A stretch of DNA of 64,000 nt, from assembly GCA_030765065.1 (NCBI GenBank), contig CM060990.1, positions 665,210,618 through 665,274,617 of the forward strand, given 5' to 3'. This stretch comes from Deroplatys truncata. Taxonomy: Eukaryota > Arthropoda > Insecta > Mantodea > Mantidae. Positions within the stretch are counted from its first letter, which is position 1. Each line of letters opens with the position of its first letter. The translations under genes were made by a program, and so were the position numbers. Positions 12,512 to 59,467 of the stretch are shown one piece after another. The notes below the pieces were generated by a model. It saw nothing but the letters and a program-made list of their open reading frames with translations. It had not been told where the DNA came from and did no database searches.

Positions 12512-12860
12512 CTTCTTCTTTAATTGATTAACCTTCTCTGTGTAGGATTTACACTCCTAAGGACATAAAAGCAAATACTTTGTGTGTAGCCCGTCGAGAA
12601 GCAAACAAACGCTAGATTATAGCATTCAAGATGGGTGATAAGCCCAGTACTTGGTATGGTGGTGAAGAAGAAGGCAGTGAAATGTAGGATGAAAGGGATG
12701 AGAGGAAAATTCGCAGATTAAATTATCCAACCCAGCATTCGCCTAGTGACCGAGGAAAACCGCGAAAAAATCTTCGGTCAGATTGGTCGGCCCCAGGGGT
12801 TTGAACCCCGAACCTCACGAATGCGGACCACAGACTCTGGCGCCTGAGCCATCTTGCTCG
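12512..12860 (-). mobile_element. SINE family C, copy 2 (single internal unit)
   Basis: Complete SINE on the minus strand. Read 5'-3' on that strand: head GAGCAAGATGGCTCAGGCG, B box GGGGTTCAAACCCC, body GACCAATCTGACCGAAG, TCGCGGTTTTCCTCGGTCAC, then one copy of the module that is tandemly repeated in the copy at 49047-50146 (GGGCTTATCACCCATCTTG ... TTGCTTCTCGACGGGC), and a tail GTGTAAATCCTACACAGAG. It is flanked by the perfect 14-bp direct repeat GTTTTACCTAATTT (12498-12511, 12861-12874), a target-site duplication. Confidence 0.92.
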
Positions 12861-13002
12861 GTTTTACCTAATTTTAATTGAGAAAAAATATTTGAAGCCA
12901 TGAATAAATAATCAGCCTTTTTTGCTAAATTTTACGAATATATTTCTCCGTATGTTTAAGCGATATTTCGATGTTATTTTCAGGCATCAGAGGGAAAAGA
13001 AA

Positions 13003-22755: not shown

Positions 22756-23603
22756 TACGTTGTGAGGCGCCAGCGTTCTCTTAATCTCGATTCACGACGT
22801 ACTGTAATTTCAACACTTCCATGAGTGTTGCCTCACTCCGATATCTGGAGTTCGATCCCAGGCTTGGGACGCTATAATACTGTGACTTTTTCCTATAACA
22901 CAAGCAGAAGGCTGCTGATAATCCTGGAGAGGAAAAATGAACAAACATATACATATTTCAATATGAGTTTCACAAATGTAACATATATTGGAAACGAACT
23001 TCTCAAATTTAAGAAAAGAGGAAGCCCAAAATAAAGATTTTGAAATTAAATGACGTCATCAGTTACAATTCTGAGCAATGTATTACTTTAATCTGCAACA
23101 ATCGTAGATATTCAAAACGAATTTGTATTCATCTGTTGTAAGACTATATCCTAATGTTTACTTTTAGCGAAGTTAAGGGAGGCCATGGTGAAGTTTTTGC
23201 TACTTAAAAACCAAAAGCTTTTCCTCTATTTTATATAAAAATAATTTCTAACCTTACAGATGCCGATTGTCCATTATTGCCGGCTGGAAAGCGAACATGC
23301 GAATATTAACGAGACTGCCACAAGTTCAGAGAAAGTTAATAAAGAAATTAATTACGCCTTAATTCGGTAAATGTACGTGGTCTGCAAGGCAAACAGGAAA
23401 CAGACTTTTATTGTAAATTCTGAAAGCTGTGGATAAAGAGAATGCATAGACCTATTCTGAATAAATTAAAAATTTGCAGTGTTAAAAACTAAAGTATGCT
23501 TTACACTCTAAAAAGAGAATATTTTATTCAAATTCACTGAATGAATGCGTTTTTCAGAACTTTAATGCAAAAATCAATGCAAAACAATCTCCGATTACCC
23601 TCC
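22756..23603. other. Non-coding stretch, nothing firm
   Basis: A B-box-like GGAGTTCGATCCCAGG at about 22847 hints at a tRNA-derived remnant, but no A box or repeat copy supports it. The rest is featureless. Confidence 0.35.
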
Positions 23604-23926
23604 CCTTCGTAGGAATTACACCTCTTAAGGACTTAAAAGCCAATATCTGTGGTCAGATACCTGTCGGGGAGCTGAAGGTCTATGGATCAGAGAGTGACAA
23701 CTTGGTGGGGGATCAGCCCGACGCCCGTGATGAGAGCGAAGAAGGAGATGGTAGATTTGTTGCGAGAGATGAATGACAGAAAAGGTAAAGATGGAGCACC
23801 GGTGGAATGATGAATGGCGGGGGAAACCGGAAAATCCCGATAAAACCCACCCAGACGCCGCTTTGTCCACCAAAAATCTCAGATGCGGGTCCCTGGGATC
23901 TAACCACTCGGCCACGGCGCCGCTTG
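23604..23926 (-). mobile_element. SINE family B, copy 1
   Basis: Minus-strand SINE whose head reads GCGGCGCCGTGGCCGAGTGG (Ser/Leu-type A box), then a deletion removing most of the tRNA part including the B box, then CCCAGGGACCCGCATC, GGCGTCTGGGTGGGTTTTAT, GGTTTCCCCCGCCATTCATC, a decayed ATCCCCCACCAAG in place of the ATCACCCATCCTGG of the other copies, and GTCCTTAAGAGGTGTAATTCC. Without the B box it could not be transcribed by polymerase III. Confidence 0.85.
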
Positions 23927-25499
23927 ATCTATAATACATTTTAAGTTAAAACTGTGGCATTGCTTTTGAATTATATAACATCATATATGTTATACAAATA
24001 ACAGTTTCTCGAGAGCTTGAATTTGACTTTATTGGCATGGCCGGATCTCTCGAAAAGCTGCTATCACTTTTAAACGCCGTAAAAATTTGGAGGGTTTACC
24101 TGCTATAGGTACTTTTTTCAGATTCTATCGTATATTTTTGGGAGTGGATACACAAAATAGGTCAGTAATTCGAAATAGTGATGGCAATGAAAGGGGAGGA
24201 TGTAATACTAATAAAGTTACACATATAAGTTTAAACCTCTAGCCTAAATTTGTGAATAATATTAATTTTATGCTTTACTGCCGTCAATTTAATTAACGAA
24301 ATTGTACCTGTGTAAAAGCTGCTAAAATATTGTAACGAAAATCCTTTCTATAAATCGGTGAGTTTTTCTTTTCTAAGGATATACGTCTTTGAATATTCCC
24401 TTTCAGGGAATAGAGAATAAAAATAGGTTTCAATTTAGAAATCCCTTTGATGATTTATAAGTTACACATGATTTTATAAAAGGATTTGTGTCCCAAAAAC
24501 TGATCCATTTATAAATATTTGACATTCGAACATTTAAGAAATCTTTCTAGCCTTCATTATCGGCCATTTACAATGTAAACATTGGGATCTATGTTGCGTA
24601 CTAATTTCTAGCAAAAACTTCTGACTCGCCATTATATATGCGCACTTGCTTATGCCGTAAAGACATTTTATTTCTGAAATTTACAACTGTAGGCGGAAAT
24701 TCTGATAGTTCTCGCTTGGTAGTTACAAAGTCAGTGATTAGTAACAAAATATGGAGTAATTTACGAAAACGAGTGTAAATAATTCGGTATTGCGGTCTTT
24801 ATAAACGGTTCAGTGGAAGAGTATTGGCTCTCTGCGTCCTCGACGAACCCTTCAGCCTAGCCCTTGACTTGTGCAAGAGGCGCCTTGGAGCTTAGCTTAT
24901 AGTGCGCCTGACGTGTACAGATGAACCCTTATCTGGCAGGTGAATGGCACGCTTGACAATAAATCATTATCTGCTTTGTGTGATTTTGATCTCCCTGCCG
25001 CCCTTCCCCCGGGATCCCTTTTTTACAGCGCACCGTGTGAAATTGATAGATTCACAACCCACTTGCGAAGCTGCGGAAACTCTGTATCTAAAGCTACAAG
25101 AATGACTTTATTTAGGGTCAGATATAAATTAGGAAGATAGATTTTAGTGCCCCTTTCTGTTTCAGGGCAGTTGAAAATATTAATTGTCCTTTACTTGTAC
25201 GAGCAGAAATGTTTCGTAACTCTCTACCTAATAAATTATACACGGCAATGTTTTGTCAACCCCATGATAAAAATGTTTTACTTTCCTAGTATATATTGCA
25301 GTAGAAACATAGAAATCCACGTATACAAGTGATTGGGAACACCCTCTCGATTTAAGTGTTAGAGTTAGAAAAATTAATTAATCTCTTTTTCAAAATGTCA
25401 AATGCTGTGTTTCTTAAGCAAATAACTACATTACTAACACCAAATGTAACCAATTCCCAATTTTTTAGACAAATGTTGAAGAAGTTATGTTCTTCAACT
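23927..25499. other. Non-coding stretch; one short perfect hairpin
   Basis: Featureless except for a perfect 8-bp inverted repeat TATTCCCT-TTC-AGGGAATA at about 24393-24411 and a somewhat GC-richer patch at 24820-24960 of unknown origin. No gene supported. Confidence 0.35.
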
Positions 25500-36498: not shown

Positions 36499-37037
36499 CT
36501 TTAGTGTGCACTGAACCTAGGCAGGTGGCACCGCGGTAACGCGTGCCACTCGCATTCAGGAGGTCCCGGGTTCCATCCCCAGCGACCGCCCTTTTTGACC
36601 CATGGGGTTTCGTGGTTTCCCCGGGGTGTCAGGCGAATACTGAGGTAGCTCATCTCCACTACGACTCTCCCCCCACTTCCTGTACCCATTATCTTCTTTG
36701 TCATCTGTTTCTAGGATTGCAGGATCAGGTGACGGTGTTCGTCGGGTAGCGGTTGTACGGCGGGTGTGTCAGTTTCATCCTGACGTCTCGGTTGCAGCCC
36801 GCTTCTGAATGCTTTCGGTCAGGAGGCTCAATAGAGTTCAATGTGTAGGTTCCGTTGGAGGTGCTTAATCTGGTATCATTGCGGAACCCGCCTGTGCTTC
36901 CGGATCTGGTGCCCTTCTGGTCTCTCCCCTCATCCCTCTCTCCATCCTGGGGGTCACGGTAGAAGCGAAGGGCGGCTGGCCCGGTTTCGAGTCCCTCATC
37001 TCTTCGTCCGTACCTATAGTGTAAGCTGATTGTGCAA
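36499..37037 (+). mobile_element. SINE family D, flanked by 10-bp duplication
   Basis: The tRNA-like head holds GGCACCGCGGTAACGCG (A-box region) and GGGTTCCATCCCC (B box), followed by a GTGGTTTCCCCGGGGTG body. The 10-bp direct repeat CATTTATAAC occurs at 36489-36498 and 37038-37047, giving a 539-bp insertion, long for a SINE; the downstream half (CTGGTGCCCTTCTGGTC) may be part of it or an older neighbour. Open frames in it are incidental. Confidence 0.72.
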
Positions 37038-40079: not shown

Positions 40080-41323
40080 CACTATGTGATCAAAAGTATC
40101 CGGACACCCCACAAACATACGTTCTTCATCTTAGGTGCATTGTGCTGCCACCTACTACCTGGTACTCATCATCCGCGACCTCAGTAGTCATTAGACATCG
40201 TGAAACAGCAGAATGGGACGCTCCGTGGAACTCACTGACTCCGAACGTTGTCAGGTGATTGGGTGTCACTTGTGTCAGAAGTCTGTACGCGAGATTTCCA
40301 CACTCCTAAACATTCCTAGGTCCACTGTTTCTGATGTGATAGTGAAGTGGAAACGTAAAGCGACATGTACAACACAAAAGCGTATAGGCCGACCTCGTCT
40401 GTTAACTGACAGAGACCGCCGACATTTGAAAAGGGTCGTAAAGAGGAATAGGCAGACATCTATCCAGATCATCACACATGAATTCCAAACTGCATCAGAA
40501 TCCACTCCAAGTACTATGACAGTTAGGCGTGAGGTGAGAAACCTTGTTCCATTGTCGAGCGGCTGCTCATAAGCCACACATCACGCAGGAAAATGCCAAA
40601 CAACACCTCGCTTGCTGTAAAGAGCGTCAACATTACAGGATTGAACAGTGGCAAAACGTTGTTTGGAGTGACGAATCACGGTACATAATGTGGCGATACG
40701 ATGGCAGGGTGTGGGTATGACGAATGCCCGGTGAACGTTATCTGCCAGCATGTGTAGTGCCAACAGTGAAATTCGGAGGTGGTGGTGTTATGGTGTGGTC
40801 GTGTTATCCTGGAGGGGGCTTGCACCCCTTGTTGTTTTGCGTGGCACGATCACAGCGCAAACCTACATTTATGTTTTAAGCACCTTCTTGTTTCCCACTA
40901 TTGAAGAGCAATTCGGCGATGACGATTGCATCTTTCAACACGATCGAGCACCTGTTTATACTGCGCGGGCTGTGGCGGAATGGTTACACGACAATAACAA
41001 TCCCGTAATCGACTGGCCTTCACAGAGTCCTGACTTGAATCCTATACAACACCTTTGGGATGTTTTGGAAGGCCGACTTCGTGCCAGGCCTCGCCGACCT
41101 ACATCGATACCTCTCCTCAGTTCTGCACTCCGTGAAGAATGGGCTGCCATTCCCCAAGAAACCTTCCAGTACCTGATTGAAAGTATGCCTGTGAGAGTGA
41201 ACGCTGTCATCAAGGCTAGGGATGGACCAACACCATATTGACTTCCAGCATTACCGATGGAGGGCGCCACGAACTTATACGTCATTTTCAGCCAGGTGTC
41301 CGGATACTTTTGATCACGTAGTG
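40080..41323 (+). mobile_element. Tc1-like transposon, copy 2, both ends present
   Basis: 1244 bp with 29-bp terminal inverted repeats (40080-40108 and 41295-41323, one difference, starting CACTATGTGATC / CACTACGTGATC) and TA duplicates (40078-40079, 41324-41325). It sits inside family H copy 7. Complete structure but dead gene. Confidence 0.95.
40213..41241 (+). pseudogene. Tc1 transposase, inactivated (frameshifts, stop, Glu to Gln)
   Basis: Same protein as the intact gene at 1547-2578. Intact through REVRNL, then a 2-bp deletion near 40545 changes frame; a TGA replaces the Trp of [10 protein letters not shown] near 40719; a 1-bp deletion near 40805 returns the original frame ([10 protein letters not shown]), and the rest is open to GPTPY. 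The second catalytic Asp is kept ([11 protein letters not shown]), but the third catalytic residue is changed: SPDLNPIQHLWD has Gln where the intact copy has Glu. The protein would be catalytically dead even if the frame were open. Confidence 0.92.
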
Positions 41324-44559: not shown

Positions 44560-44583
44560 AATGATACCAATGTGTTTATTACC

Positions 44584-44930
44584 TTCTTCTTTATCTGTTT
44601 AACCTCCTCTTATGTAGGACTTACACCCCCAAGACTTGCAGGCGGGTGCCTGGGGTCAGAGGCCCGTCGAGGATCAGACAGAATATCCAGGATGGGTGAT
44701 CAGCCCGATGCCTGGTGTGGGAAGAAGGAAGTAGATGAAACGAAATGATAGTGAAATTGATGAAAGGAAAGGTGATGATGGAGCAGTTGGTGGAATGAAT
44801 GGCGGGGGAAACCGGTGAACCCGGAGAAAACCCGCCAAGACTACAAATCCCACATGTGGGTCCCTGGGACTGAACCCGGGCCGCCTCGGTGAGAGGCGAG
44901 CGGTCTAACCACTCGGCCACGGCGCCGCCA
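44584..44930 (-). mobile_element. SINE family B, copy 2
   Basis: Complete minus-strand copy. Head GGCGGCGCCGTGGCCGAGTG, B box GGGTTCAGTCCC, body GGGACCCACATGTGGG, GGCGGGTTTTCTCCGGG, GGTTTCCCCCGCCATTC, tail GGGCTGATCACCCATCCTGG and GTAAGTCCTACATAAGAGG. The target duplication is TGTTTATTACC (44573-44583, 44931-44941). Ser/Leu-type tRNA origin is inferred from the A box. Confidence 0.93.
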
Positions 44931-44945
44931 TGTTTATTACCGTCC

Positions 44946-45703: not shown

Positions 45704-46065
45704 TTTTCATTCATTCATTATCTGTTTACCCTCCTCTTATGTAGGACTTACACCCCCAGGACTTACAAGCGGGTGCCTGGGGTCAGAGGCCCGTCGAGGA
45801 GCAGATATTCATGGATCAGACAGAGCATCCAGGATGGGTGATCAGCCCGATGCCAGGTATGGGATGAAGGAAGTAGATGAAACGAAATGTTGGTGATGAT
45901 GGAGCAGTTGGTGGAATGAATGGCGGGGGAAACCGGAGAACCCGGAGAAAACCCGCCCAGACGCCGCTTCGTCCACCACAAATCCCACATGCAGGTCCCT
46001 GGGATTGAACCCGGGCCGCCTAGATGGGAGGCGAGCGGTCTAACCACTCGGCCACGGCGCCGCCG
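45704..46065 (-). mobile_element. SINE family B, copy 3
   Basis: Best-preserved B copy: A box TGGCCGAGTGGTTAGACC, B box GGGTTCAATCCC, and the tail with CTGATCACCCATCCTGGATG, CTCCTCGACGGGCCTCTG and TAAGTCCTACATAAGAGG. Flanked by the perfect 13-bp duplication CGTAGAGCAAATA (45691-45703, 46066-46078). Full length about 362 bp. Confidence 0.95.
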
Positions 46066-46243
46066 CGTAGAGCAAATAGCTAGTATTTAATTTCCAGATA
46101 TGCTTTTGAATTTTCAAAGATAATACTGAGGTGAAGAATGACTGATAACTTTCATCTAATACCCACTTTTGTAAAACTTGAAATCAAGTTTCCTACATTC
46201 TACCCAAAAAATTTACCCATCTAGCCAGTAGTACAAAATAAAA

Positions 46244-48737: not shown

Positions 48738-49038
48738 TTTTCTTCTGGAACAATCAGATGAATTTAAAATTAGGTAGATGCTAGTTTTGTGTAAGAGTAT
48801 ATAAATAATGAGGTAGTTTTTAATTTTTTTCAATGTTACGGTTTATGCATTGTATGCAACATCTAATTAGCATAATGAGAGAGAAATTTTTTTTTTTCTA
48901 GAAAGCTGTTAAAGATGTCTGCAGGAAGTTTAAAACGCCCTTGCGGTTGAGCAGCATGTGAAAACATTTAGATAAAAGCTACAAGACTTAAAGCGGTTAA
49001 AATGCAACTGCTTAAACACATGTTTAGGCACTGGAGAG
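48738..49038. other. Non-coding spacer
   Basis: Nothing recognised. Confidence 0.35.
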
Positions 49039-49046
49039 TTCCATTC

Positions 49047-50146
49047 ACCGAGCGGGATGGCTCATGCGGTAACCTCTGTGGCCGCATTTGGGAGGTCCCG
49101 GGGCCAACCAATCTGACCGAAGGTTTTTTCGCGGTTTTCCTCGGTCGCTAGGTGAATGCTAGTTTGGATAAGTTGATTTGCGAATTCTCCTATCATCCCT
49201 TTCATCACTACATTTCAATTCCTTCTTCACCGCCATACCGGGCATTGGGCTGATCACCCATCCTGGATATGCTATGATCTAGAGTTTGCTTGCTCCTCGA
49301 CAGGGTACTGACCGAAGGTATTGGGCTGATCACCCATCCTGGACATGCTATGATCTAGAGATTGCTTGCTCCTCGACAGGCTACTGACCCAAGGCATTGG
49401 GCTGATCACCCATCCTGGATATGCTATGATCTAGAGTTTGCTTGCTCCTCGACAGGCTACTGACCCAAGGCATTGGGCTGATCACCCATCCTGGACATGC
49501 TACGGTTCAGAGTTTTCTTGCTCCTGGACAGGCTAATGACCGAAGGCATTGGACTGATCACCCATCCTGAATATGCTATGATTCAGAGTTTCCTGGCTCC
49601 TCGACAGGCTGCTGACCCAAGATATTGGGCTGAACATCCATCCTGGATATGCAATGATTCAGAGTTTGCTTGCTCCCCGAGAGGATACTGACCCAAGGCA
49701 CTGGGCTGATCACCCATCCTGGATATACTATGATCCAGAGTTTGCTTGCTCCTAGACAGGCTACTGACCCAAGGTATTGAGCTGATCACCCATCCTTGAT
49801 ATGCTATGATTCAGAGTTTCCTGGCTCCTTGACACGCTACTGACTGAGGGAATTGGGCTGAATATCCATCCTGGATTTGCTATGATCTAGAGTTTGCTTG
49901 CTCCTCGAGAGGCTGCTGACCCACGGCATTGGGCTGATCACTCATCCTGGACATGCTATGGTCTAGAGTTTGCTTACTCCTCGAGAGGCCACTGACACAA
50001 GGTATTGGGCTGATCACCCATCCTGAATATGCTATGATCCAGAGTTTGCTTGCTCCTCGAGAGGCTGCTGACTCAAGGCACTGGCTAGTAAGTCCTTGAG
50101 GGCGTAAGTCCTATAAAGAGGAGGGTAATCATTTAAAAAAGAAGTC
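49047..50146 (+). mobile_element. SINE family C, copy 1, expanded by an internal array
   Basis: Head CCGAGCGGGATGGCTCATGC and B-box region GGGAGGTCCCGGGGCC (decayed), body GACCAATCTGACCGAAGG, TCGCGGTTTTCCTCGGTCGC, then 11 tandem 76-bp units, then the tail GTAAGTCCTTGAGG and GTAAGTCCTATAAAGAGG. The 8-bp direct repeat TTCCATTC flanks the whole (49039-49046, 50147-50154), so the array sits within one SINE insertion. The other C copy (12512-12860) has a single unit. Confidence 0.88.
49244..50079 (+). repeat. 11 x 76-bp tandem array inside the SINE
   Basis: Units start (ATTGGG or variant) at 49244, 49320, 49396, 49472, 49548, 49624, 49700, 49776, 49852, 49928 and 50004: every spacing is exactly 76. 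Each unit reads about GGGCTGATCACCCATCCTGG, ATATGCTATGATCTAGAG, TTTGCTTGCTCCTCGACAGG, CTACTGACCCAAGGC. Units differ by several substitutions but I see no insertions or deletions. Units 5-7 and 8-10 share variants (TTCCTGGCTCC, TGAA-ATCCATCC), hinting at a three-unit (228-bp) higher-order repeat. Open frames through it are incidental since 76 is not a multiple of 3. Confidence 0.95.
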
Positions 50147-50154
50147 TTCCATTC

Positions 50155-56559: not shown

Positions 56560-56816
56560 AGTAGATCTACTGTGGGAGGAAGGGATGAAGAGATGGAACC
56601 ACAGGAGGCTACAGGCTGCAGGCAAACGGGCCACAGAGACGCGCGGAAGGAAGCCGAATGAGGGAAAGGAAATCGGTAAGGAAAAACCAGCGCAGGATTT
56701 GTTTACTGACCCGGGGAAACCACGAAAAACCCATGGTCAGAGTGGGTGGTCGACGGGAATCGTGGAGACCTCCCAAATACGAGACTCACACGTTAGTCAT
56801 CGCGCACGGTATTGGC
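56560..56816 (-). mobile_element. SINE, family D-like, copy 2
   Basis: Reverse complement reads GTGCGCGATGACTAACGTGT, GTATTTGGGAGGTCTCCACG, then TCTGACCATGGGTTTTTCGT and GGTTTCCCCGGGTCAG, resembling the head and first body block of the SINE at 36499-37037. The B box is decayed. The 163-codon plus-strand open frame running antisense across it is not considered a gene. Ends approximate. Confidence 0.6.
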
Positions 56817-59036: not shown

Positions 59037-59467
59037 TTGTTTATCAGGAAGCGGAGAAAGATTTCGGGCCTTGCGCACTTGAAGGCCTATTGTGCTTCTG
59101 GAAACCTCCGGGAGGAAAGGGCAAAGGAAAGTACACAGAGGGCAACCACATCCGGAGCGGCATTCTTGGACGCAGGCGGGGTCCCTAACGTCTACAGACA
59201 TTTCATTCTTACAGTACATGTTCCTGGAGAGGTGTCCCTTTGGGCCCGTCACACACCGAACGCCAGGGTAGGCAGTTCCTAAAGCACAGCCAACCGCTCG
59301 TCAGCCGCCCACTGGCCTGATCCTTCAATACGGAAACATAAGAAAATTCACCTCAGGGTTCGCCTAACAACCAGGGAAAACCGCGAAGAAATCAATATCG
59401 GAGTGGCCGGTTCAATGGCAATCGAACCCGGAACAACCTCGCAGGTTACCGCGGAGACATTTCGCGT
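59037..59467 (-). mobile_element. SINE, family C-like, copy 3
   Basis: Reverse complement starts GGAACCACGCGAAATGTC, with CGCGGTAACCTGC, B box GGGTTCGATTGCC, and TCGCGGTTTTCCCTGGTTG as in family C, but the 3' half differs (no ATCACCCATCC module). Flanked by a perfect 14-bp duplication GGTTCCAACATGTT (59023-59036, 59468-59481; the head overlaps its first bases). It probably represents another member of a SINE superfamily with shared 5' and swapped 3' parts. Confidence 0.82.

Follow-up and report, generated by a model that had tools for sequence, protein, structure and literature searches.

The locus

The window, i.e. the whole stretch of 64,000 nucleotides from the mantis Deroplatys truncata that was analysed (contig CM060990.1), contains a SINE in which head and tail are separated by eleven tandem units (Table 1). 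Tandem Repeats Finder reports the repeat at 49241–50084, with a period of 76, 11.1 copies, 85% matches and 0% indels; its score of 1212 is the highest among the 12 rows for the window. Cutting 49244–50079 every 76 bp gives 11 contiguous units whose alignment is free of gaps and indels. The original prediction, according to which eleven units each keep exactly 76 bp despite substitutions, therefore holds, and lengths do not vary once the units are aligned (11/11 at 76 bp). Substitutions are abundant: 34 of the 76 columns are variable, the units depart from the majority sequence by 1 to 11 bases each (67 over the 11 units), and no two units are identical, the closest pair being 2 bases apart. 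A partial twelfth unit (GGCACTGG, at 50077–50084) runs into the SINE tail; neither this remnant nor the gap in the head at the place of box B figured in the earlier description. Nothing in the analysis points to a function of the array.

Table 1. Coordinates of the array-bearing SINE, its parts and its relatives in the window
Feature	Position	Strand	Evidence
5′ target-site duplication, TTCCATTC	49039–49046	+	Exact match to 50147–50154
SINE head and body: tRNA-like 5′ part, then stretch in common with the SINE at 12512–12862	49047–49243	+	BLASTN, alignment
Junction lacking 13–14 bp, which in the SINE at 12512–12862 contain box B	49096–49097	+	Alignments
Left edge repeat, GGCATTGGGCT (presumed seed)	49241–49251	+	Sequence; edge comparison in relatives
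Eleven tandem units of 76 bp	49244–50079	+	Tandem Repeats Finder; 76 bp cuts aligning gap-free
Right edge repeat, GGCACTGGCT: partial unit 12 plus native tail start (presumed seed)	50077–50086	+	Sequence; edge comparison
SINE 3′ tail, common to other SINEs, with A/AAG-rich end	50080–50146	+	BLASTN, alignment
3′ target-site duplication, TTCCATTC	50147–50154	+	Exact copy of 49039–49046
SINE of the same family, one module	12512–12862	−	BLASTN, alignment; target-site duplication of 14 bp
SINE whose tRNA-like head differs but whose 3′ half is the same; a single, shorter module	44583–44935	−	11-bp end repeat
Second SINE of the other-head family, one module	45714–46070	−	13-bp end repeat
Third, more diverged SINE of the other-head family, one module	23593–23930	−	BLASTN, alignment

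The expected boundaries of the array, a SINE head and tail with an 8-bp duplication outside, are borne out. The two copies of TTCCATTC are exact, and under the same loose rule an 8-bp repeat is found in 425 of 200,000 random pairs of sites of the window, i.e. a chance of ∼0.2%. The head of the SINE displays a box A pattern (TGGCTCATGCG), and no box B pattern is found in 49039–49243. Box A is matched in 5/5 elements and box B in 2/5 only (those at 12512 and 45714), so that the array copy is not alone in having a damaged box B. Six consecutive T residues occur at 49124–49129, soon after the tRNA-like part, and also at the matching place in 12512–12862. The T runs of these two SINEs are likely Pol III stops, which would hinder full-length transcripts.

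Two other short resemblances, either of which may be due to chance, are seen around the array. The upstream flank at 49026–49039 (AGGCACTGGAGAGT) agrees at 12 of 14 positions with the right edge of the array at 50076–50089 (AGGCACTGGCTAGT). In the head, 49113–49127 (CTGACCGAAGGTTTT) matches the end of unit 1 and the start of unit 2 at 49308–49322 (CTGACCGAAGGTATT); head and module could misalign at this second short repeat.

Across the window, ARAGORN predicts no tRNA and no Rfam family is found at gathering scores. Exact patterns from the SINE body and the module start have no match in viral contigs (two scans) or in prokaryote genome contigs (two scans), searches that say nothing about eukaryote genomes. 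No literature naming the array SINE was found by a search of article text, and the family may be in print; cockroach SINEs are the topic of PMC9191728.

Single-module relatives and native origin of the unit

BLASTN searches (E limit up to 0.001 in one and 0.01 in another, the printed list of the latter omitting hits within the array) reveal four other module-bearing places in the window, each with one module. One belongs to the family of the array SINE and three have its 3′ half, module included, in common with it. The relative at 12512–12862, already part of the original prediction, is confirmed on the minus strand as a copy with one module and a 14-bp target duplication. Its identity with head plus first unit of the array SINE depends on the columns counted, being 79% over 280 gapped columns by BLASTN and 86% over ungapped columns in another alignment. 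End repeats flank three of the four relatives, and no target duplication was found at 23593–23930. A shorter module had been announced for the family with the other head; this is correct for 44583–44935 (15-bp gap relative to 45714–46070; edge spacing 62) but not for 45714–46070 and 23593–23930, where the edges are 77 and 78 apart.

The junctions of the array are in register with these single modules. On the left, CCATACC is followed by GGCATTGGGCTGATC, the counterpart in the SINE at 45714 being CCATACCTGGCATCGGGCTGATC; on the right, AGGCACTGGCTAGTAAGTCC corresponds to AGGCACCCGCTTGTAAGTCC in the same relative. In the alignment, both junctions coincide with the edges of the relatives' single module. 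Because four other SINEs carry one module each, the unit is a native SINE segment, and because both junctions sit at the edges of that segment, the array is its amplified form, as had been proposed. This register makes it very unlikely that a satellite simply happens to adjoin pieces of SINE.

The window contains two SINE families (the array SINE with the copy at 12512, and the copies at 23593, 44583 and 45714) that differ in their tRNA-like heads and have module and tail in common. The pattern is what an exchange of heads on a single tail would leave, the tail possibly being that of a partner LINE. Three further tRNA-like stretches (36551–36642, 56687–56745 and 59346–59393) match by BLASTN only the part that follows the head (about TTCGCGGTTTTCC..GG..TAGGCGAA) and have no module. 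This part is perhaps a central domain common to several SINE families.

Divergence of the units

Pairs of units differ on average by 13.6% (range 2.6–23.7%), a Jukes–Cantor distance of 0.152. Between the array SINE and the copy at 12512, its closest relative in the window, the corresponding distances, each of which includes one array unit, are 0.154 for head and first unit, 0.247 for last unit and tail, and 0.185 when pooled. Judged by these figures, the units have roughly the age of the split between the two SINEs, or are somewhat younger. Adjacent units are no closer to each other than other pairs (10.7 versus 10.3 differences, P 0.77). Units 1–3 differ by 2 to 5 bases only and may represent a later duplication.

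To account for the constant length, the original prediction had invoked unequal exchange or gene conversion as correcting processes, or else a length constraint. The data do not support correction that continues, because the divergence among units is similar to that between SINE copies and because neighbours are no closer. A homogenised satellite undergoing concerted evolution is rejected on the same two observations.

Two further approaches to the age of the array are reported but not relied on. Under a first rule for derived sites, 8/53 are counted in the tail, 3/50 in the unit consensus and 68/550 in the units together, which hints at early amplification; under a second rule, with 10/59 in the tail and 11/66 in the unit consensus, this hint disappears, and the stretch used at 23593 is without the module start. 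A tree of the 11 units with the modules of three relatives has supports of 13–70 among units and places the module of 12512 inside them.

Constant length of the units

The array has accumulated no fewer than 41 substitutions (counted as the sum of states minus one) and 0 indels. Indel events and substitutions number 11 and 65 between the array SINE and the copy at 12512, 7 and 36 in the head part, and 5 and 18 between the copies at 44583 and 45714, so that the array shows an indel deficit (Fisher P 0.008, 0.012 and 0.004, respectively, from counts that are small, vary with gap settings and result partly from subfamily differences, two alignments placing the gaps differently). The pairs 44583–23593 (19 indels, 57 substitutions) and 45714–23593 (18 and 55) were kept out of the tests owing to poor alignment; adding them would have strengthened the deficit. 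A further caveat on the deficit is that base runs are longer in the head than in the unit (6 versus 3). In the alignments, module length has changed between SINE copies. The lack of indels is probably a real, if mild, anomaly. It lends no support to correction, since exchange that purges indels should purge substitutions too. RNA structure as a reason for constant length finds no support either: five folded modules, three from among the 11 array units and one each from 12512 and 45714, have no unusual structure (z −0.44 to 1.76).

Origin of the array

In the explanation that, taken as a whole, appears fairly probable, a tRNA-type SINE with one module of ∼76 bp would have been inserted at TTCCATTC. 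A slipped or unequal event between the imperfect direct repeats at the start of the module and the start of the tail (Table 1) would have duplicated the module, and two long homologous units would then have allowed more unequal exchange or replication slippage, up to eleven. Amplification would be old, the units having diverged afterwards with little homogenisation. In the single-module copies, module and tail begin alike, with 10, 8, 7 and 5 agreeing positions out of 13 (ungapped) in those at 44583, 45714, 12512 and 23593, respectively. Local alignment of these edges, compared with random pairs from the same element, gives P 0.008 for 44583 and 0.016 for 12512, where the repeats are unusual, and P 0.36 for both 45714 and 23593, where they are not. 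Since just two of the four relatives have edge repeats that exceed the random level, the seed step is an inference. So are the DNA-level mechanism, growth at the site rather than in a parent copy, and growth by steps, whereas the anatomy, the native origin of the module, the register of the junctions, the number and length of the units and the depth of their divergence are shown directly.

The model published for minisatellites that derive from Alu has the same two stages, seeding and then unequal exchange or slippage. Repeats of 5–10 bp around a segment are proposed starters of duplication (Haber and Louis, as cited in PMC6947457 and in section 3.4 of PMC3389668), and the passage from element to minisatellite has been documented in Alu as well as in other elements (PMC3389668 and PMC6947457). 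A point against the seed step is that, according to section 3.4 of PMC3389668, no more than 6% of human tandem repeats derived from transposable elements may be accounted for by direct repeats at the flanks or by truncated end units.

Weak arguments for growth in place are that none of the four relatives is expanded and that the array copy has no box B. The alternative that a parent SINE was already expanded and that the array came whole by retroposition is unlikely. A full-length 5′ end, a tail and a target duplication do enclose the array, and units about as diverged as separate SINE copies fit an array present at insertion; but none of the four module-bearing relatives in the window, a small sample, is expanded, and the array copy is now without a box B match, although this loss may be later, and the copies at 44583 and 23593 also lack the pattern. 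A more specific version, decidedly improbable, supposes a SINE lineage that, like SVA, takes its 76-bp minisatellite along when it moves, and in which a constraint on RNA or on in-register pairing keeps unit length. If true, it would explain the missing indels, which growth from edge repeats by unequal exchange does not predict.

Within the preferred explanation, in which the array grew at the site, stepwise growth is likely. A simulated history of one burst with uniform site rates is rejected by the number of unit pairs with two or more common variants (P 0.001); with varying site rates it is not (P 0.09 and 0.30). The order of the units is only suggestive of block duplication: units 5 and 8 have two private variants in common and units 6 and 9 two others, with P 0.033 for this block statistic and 0.007 to 0.033 for a distance of three alone, but no significant signal once the distance is unconstrained (P 0.18 to 0.37). 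A reverse transcriptase jumping repeatedly on the RNA of a one-module SINE, which would have made the array during insertion, is also improbable. The mostly single-burst history that it entails is allowed under varying site rates, and the numbers of changes are compatible with units of a single age (dispersion P 0.12); against it stand the excess of common variants over one burst when sites have equal rates, and the absence of unusual RNA structure in the five folded modules. Finally, an independent satellite abutting SINE pieces, a coincidental 8-bp repeat or an assembly artefact is hardly credible, for although TTCCATTC has four plus-strand and three minus-strand occurrences in the window, so that chance is possible, a repeat so placed is rare, homology links the unit to the modules of other SINEs with both junctions in register, and even the most similar units differ.

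Known systems

The locus on which growth in place is proposed has units homologous to a single-copy SINE segment, one of the features of SINE-derived minisatellites of the Alu type. Its closest counterparts are Alu-derived minisatellites and the SINE-derived satellites (sSats) of squamate reptiles; the kind is known and the locus is a clear new case. In the former (Jurka and Gentles 2006, as told in PMC3389668 and PMC6947457), a segment internal to a SINE and bounded by short direct repeats also gives a tandem array. For instance, an AluJo array comprises 17 units of 52 bp, and the authors ascribe its extra units to in-place duplication (PMC3389668). The mantis array differs in SINE family and organism, and its edge repeats are imperfect. 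Squamate sSats (PMC10702118) likewise consist of tandem units that come from a SINE segment, and their arrays retain SINE ends. They occupy many loci with up to 1000 units, the long ones homogenised and most with only one SINE end, whereas short loci have variable units and minor variants retain both SINE termini. In contrast, the mantis array is one locus of 11 units, with both ends and a target duplication, and is not homogenised.

Two other systems are more distant. SVA resembles the mantis element as a retroposon with an internal tandem array. The SVA array belongs to a mobile family, whereas in the mantis window there is no sign that the 76-bp array travels. SVA is a composite of SINE-R, VNTR and Alu (PMC3389668). 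PcH-sat of Patella caerulea, a large pericentromeric satellite of 179-bp monomers with a Nin-SINE segment (PMC11121367), is also a tandem repeat with a SINE-related part; the mantis array, by contrast, sits inside one SINE.

Setting and significance

Tc1/mariner-type transposase domains are matched by three of the eight reading frames sent to Pfam, which were chosen out of 21 listed. A long open frame at 1547–2587 on the minus strand encodes a transposase of this type, and a second relative, at 40204–41241 on the plus strand, is broken into separate frames. Some reading frames of the window may resemble cockroach repeat proteins.

One window thus has single-module relatives, candidate starting repeats, an amplified array and a duplicated target site, and the locus offers a legible snapshot of the step from dispersed mobile element to tandem repeat. 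If the number of units varies among individuals, it would be a ready marker. Should a sister locus with the same array be found, it would reveal a SINE lineage moving with its minisatellite.
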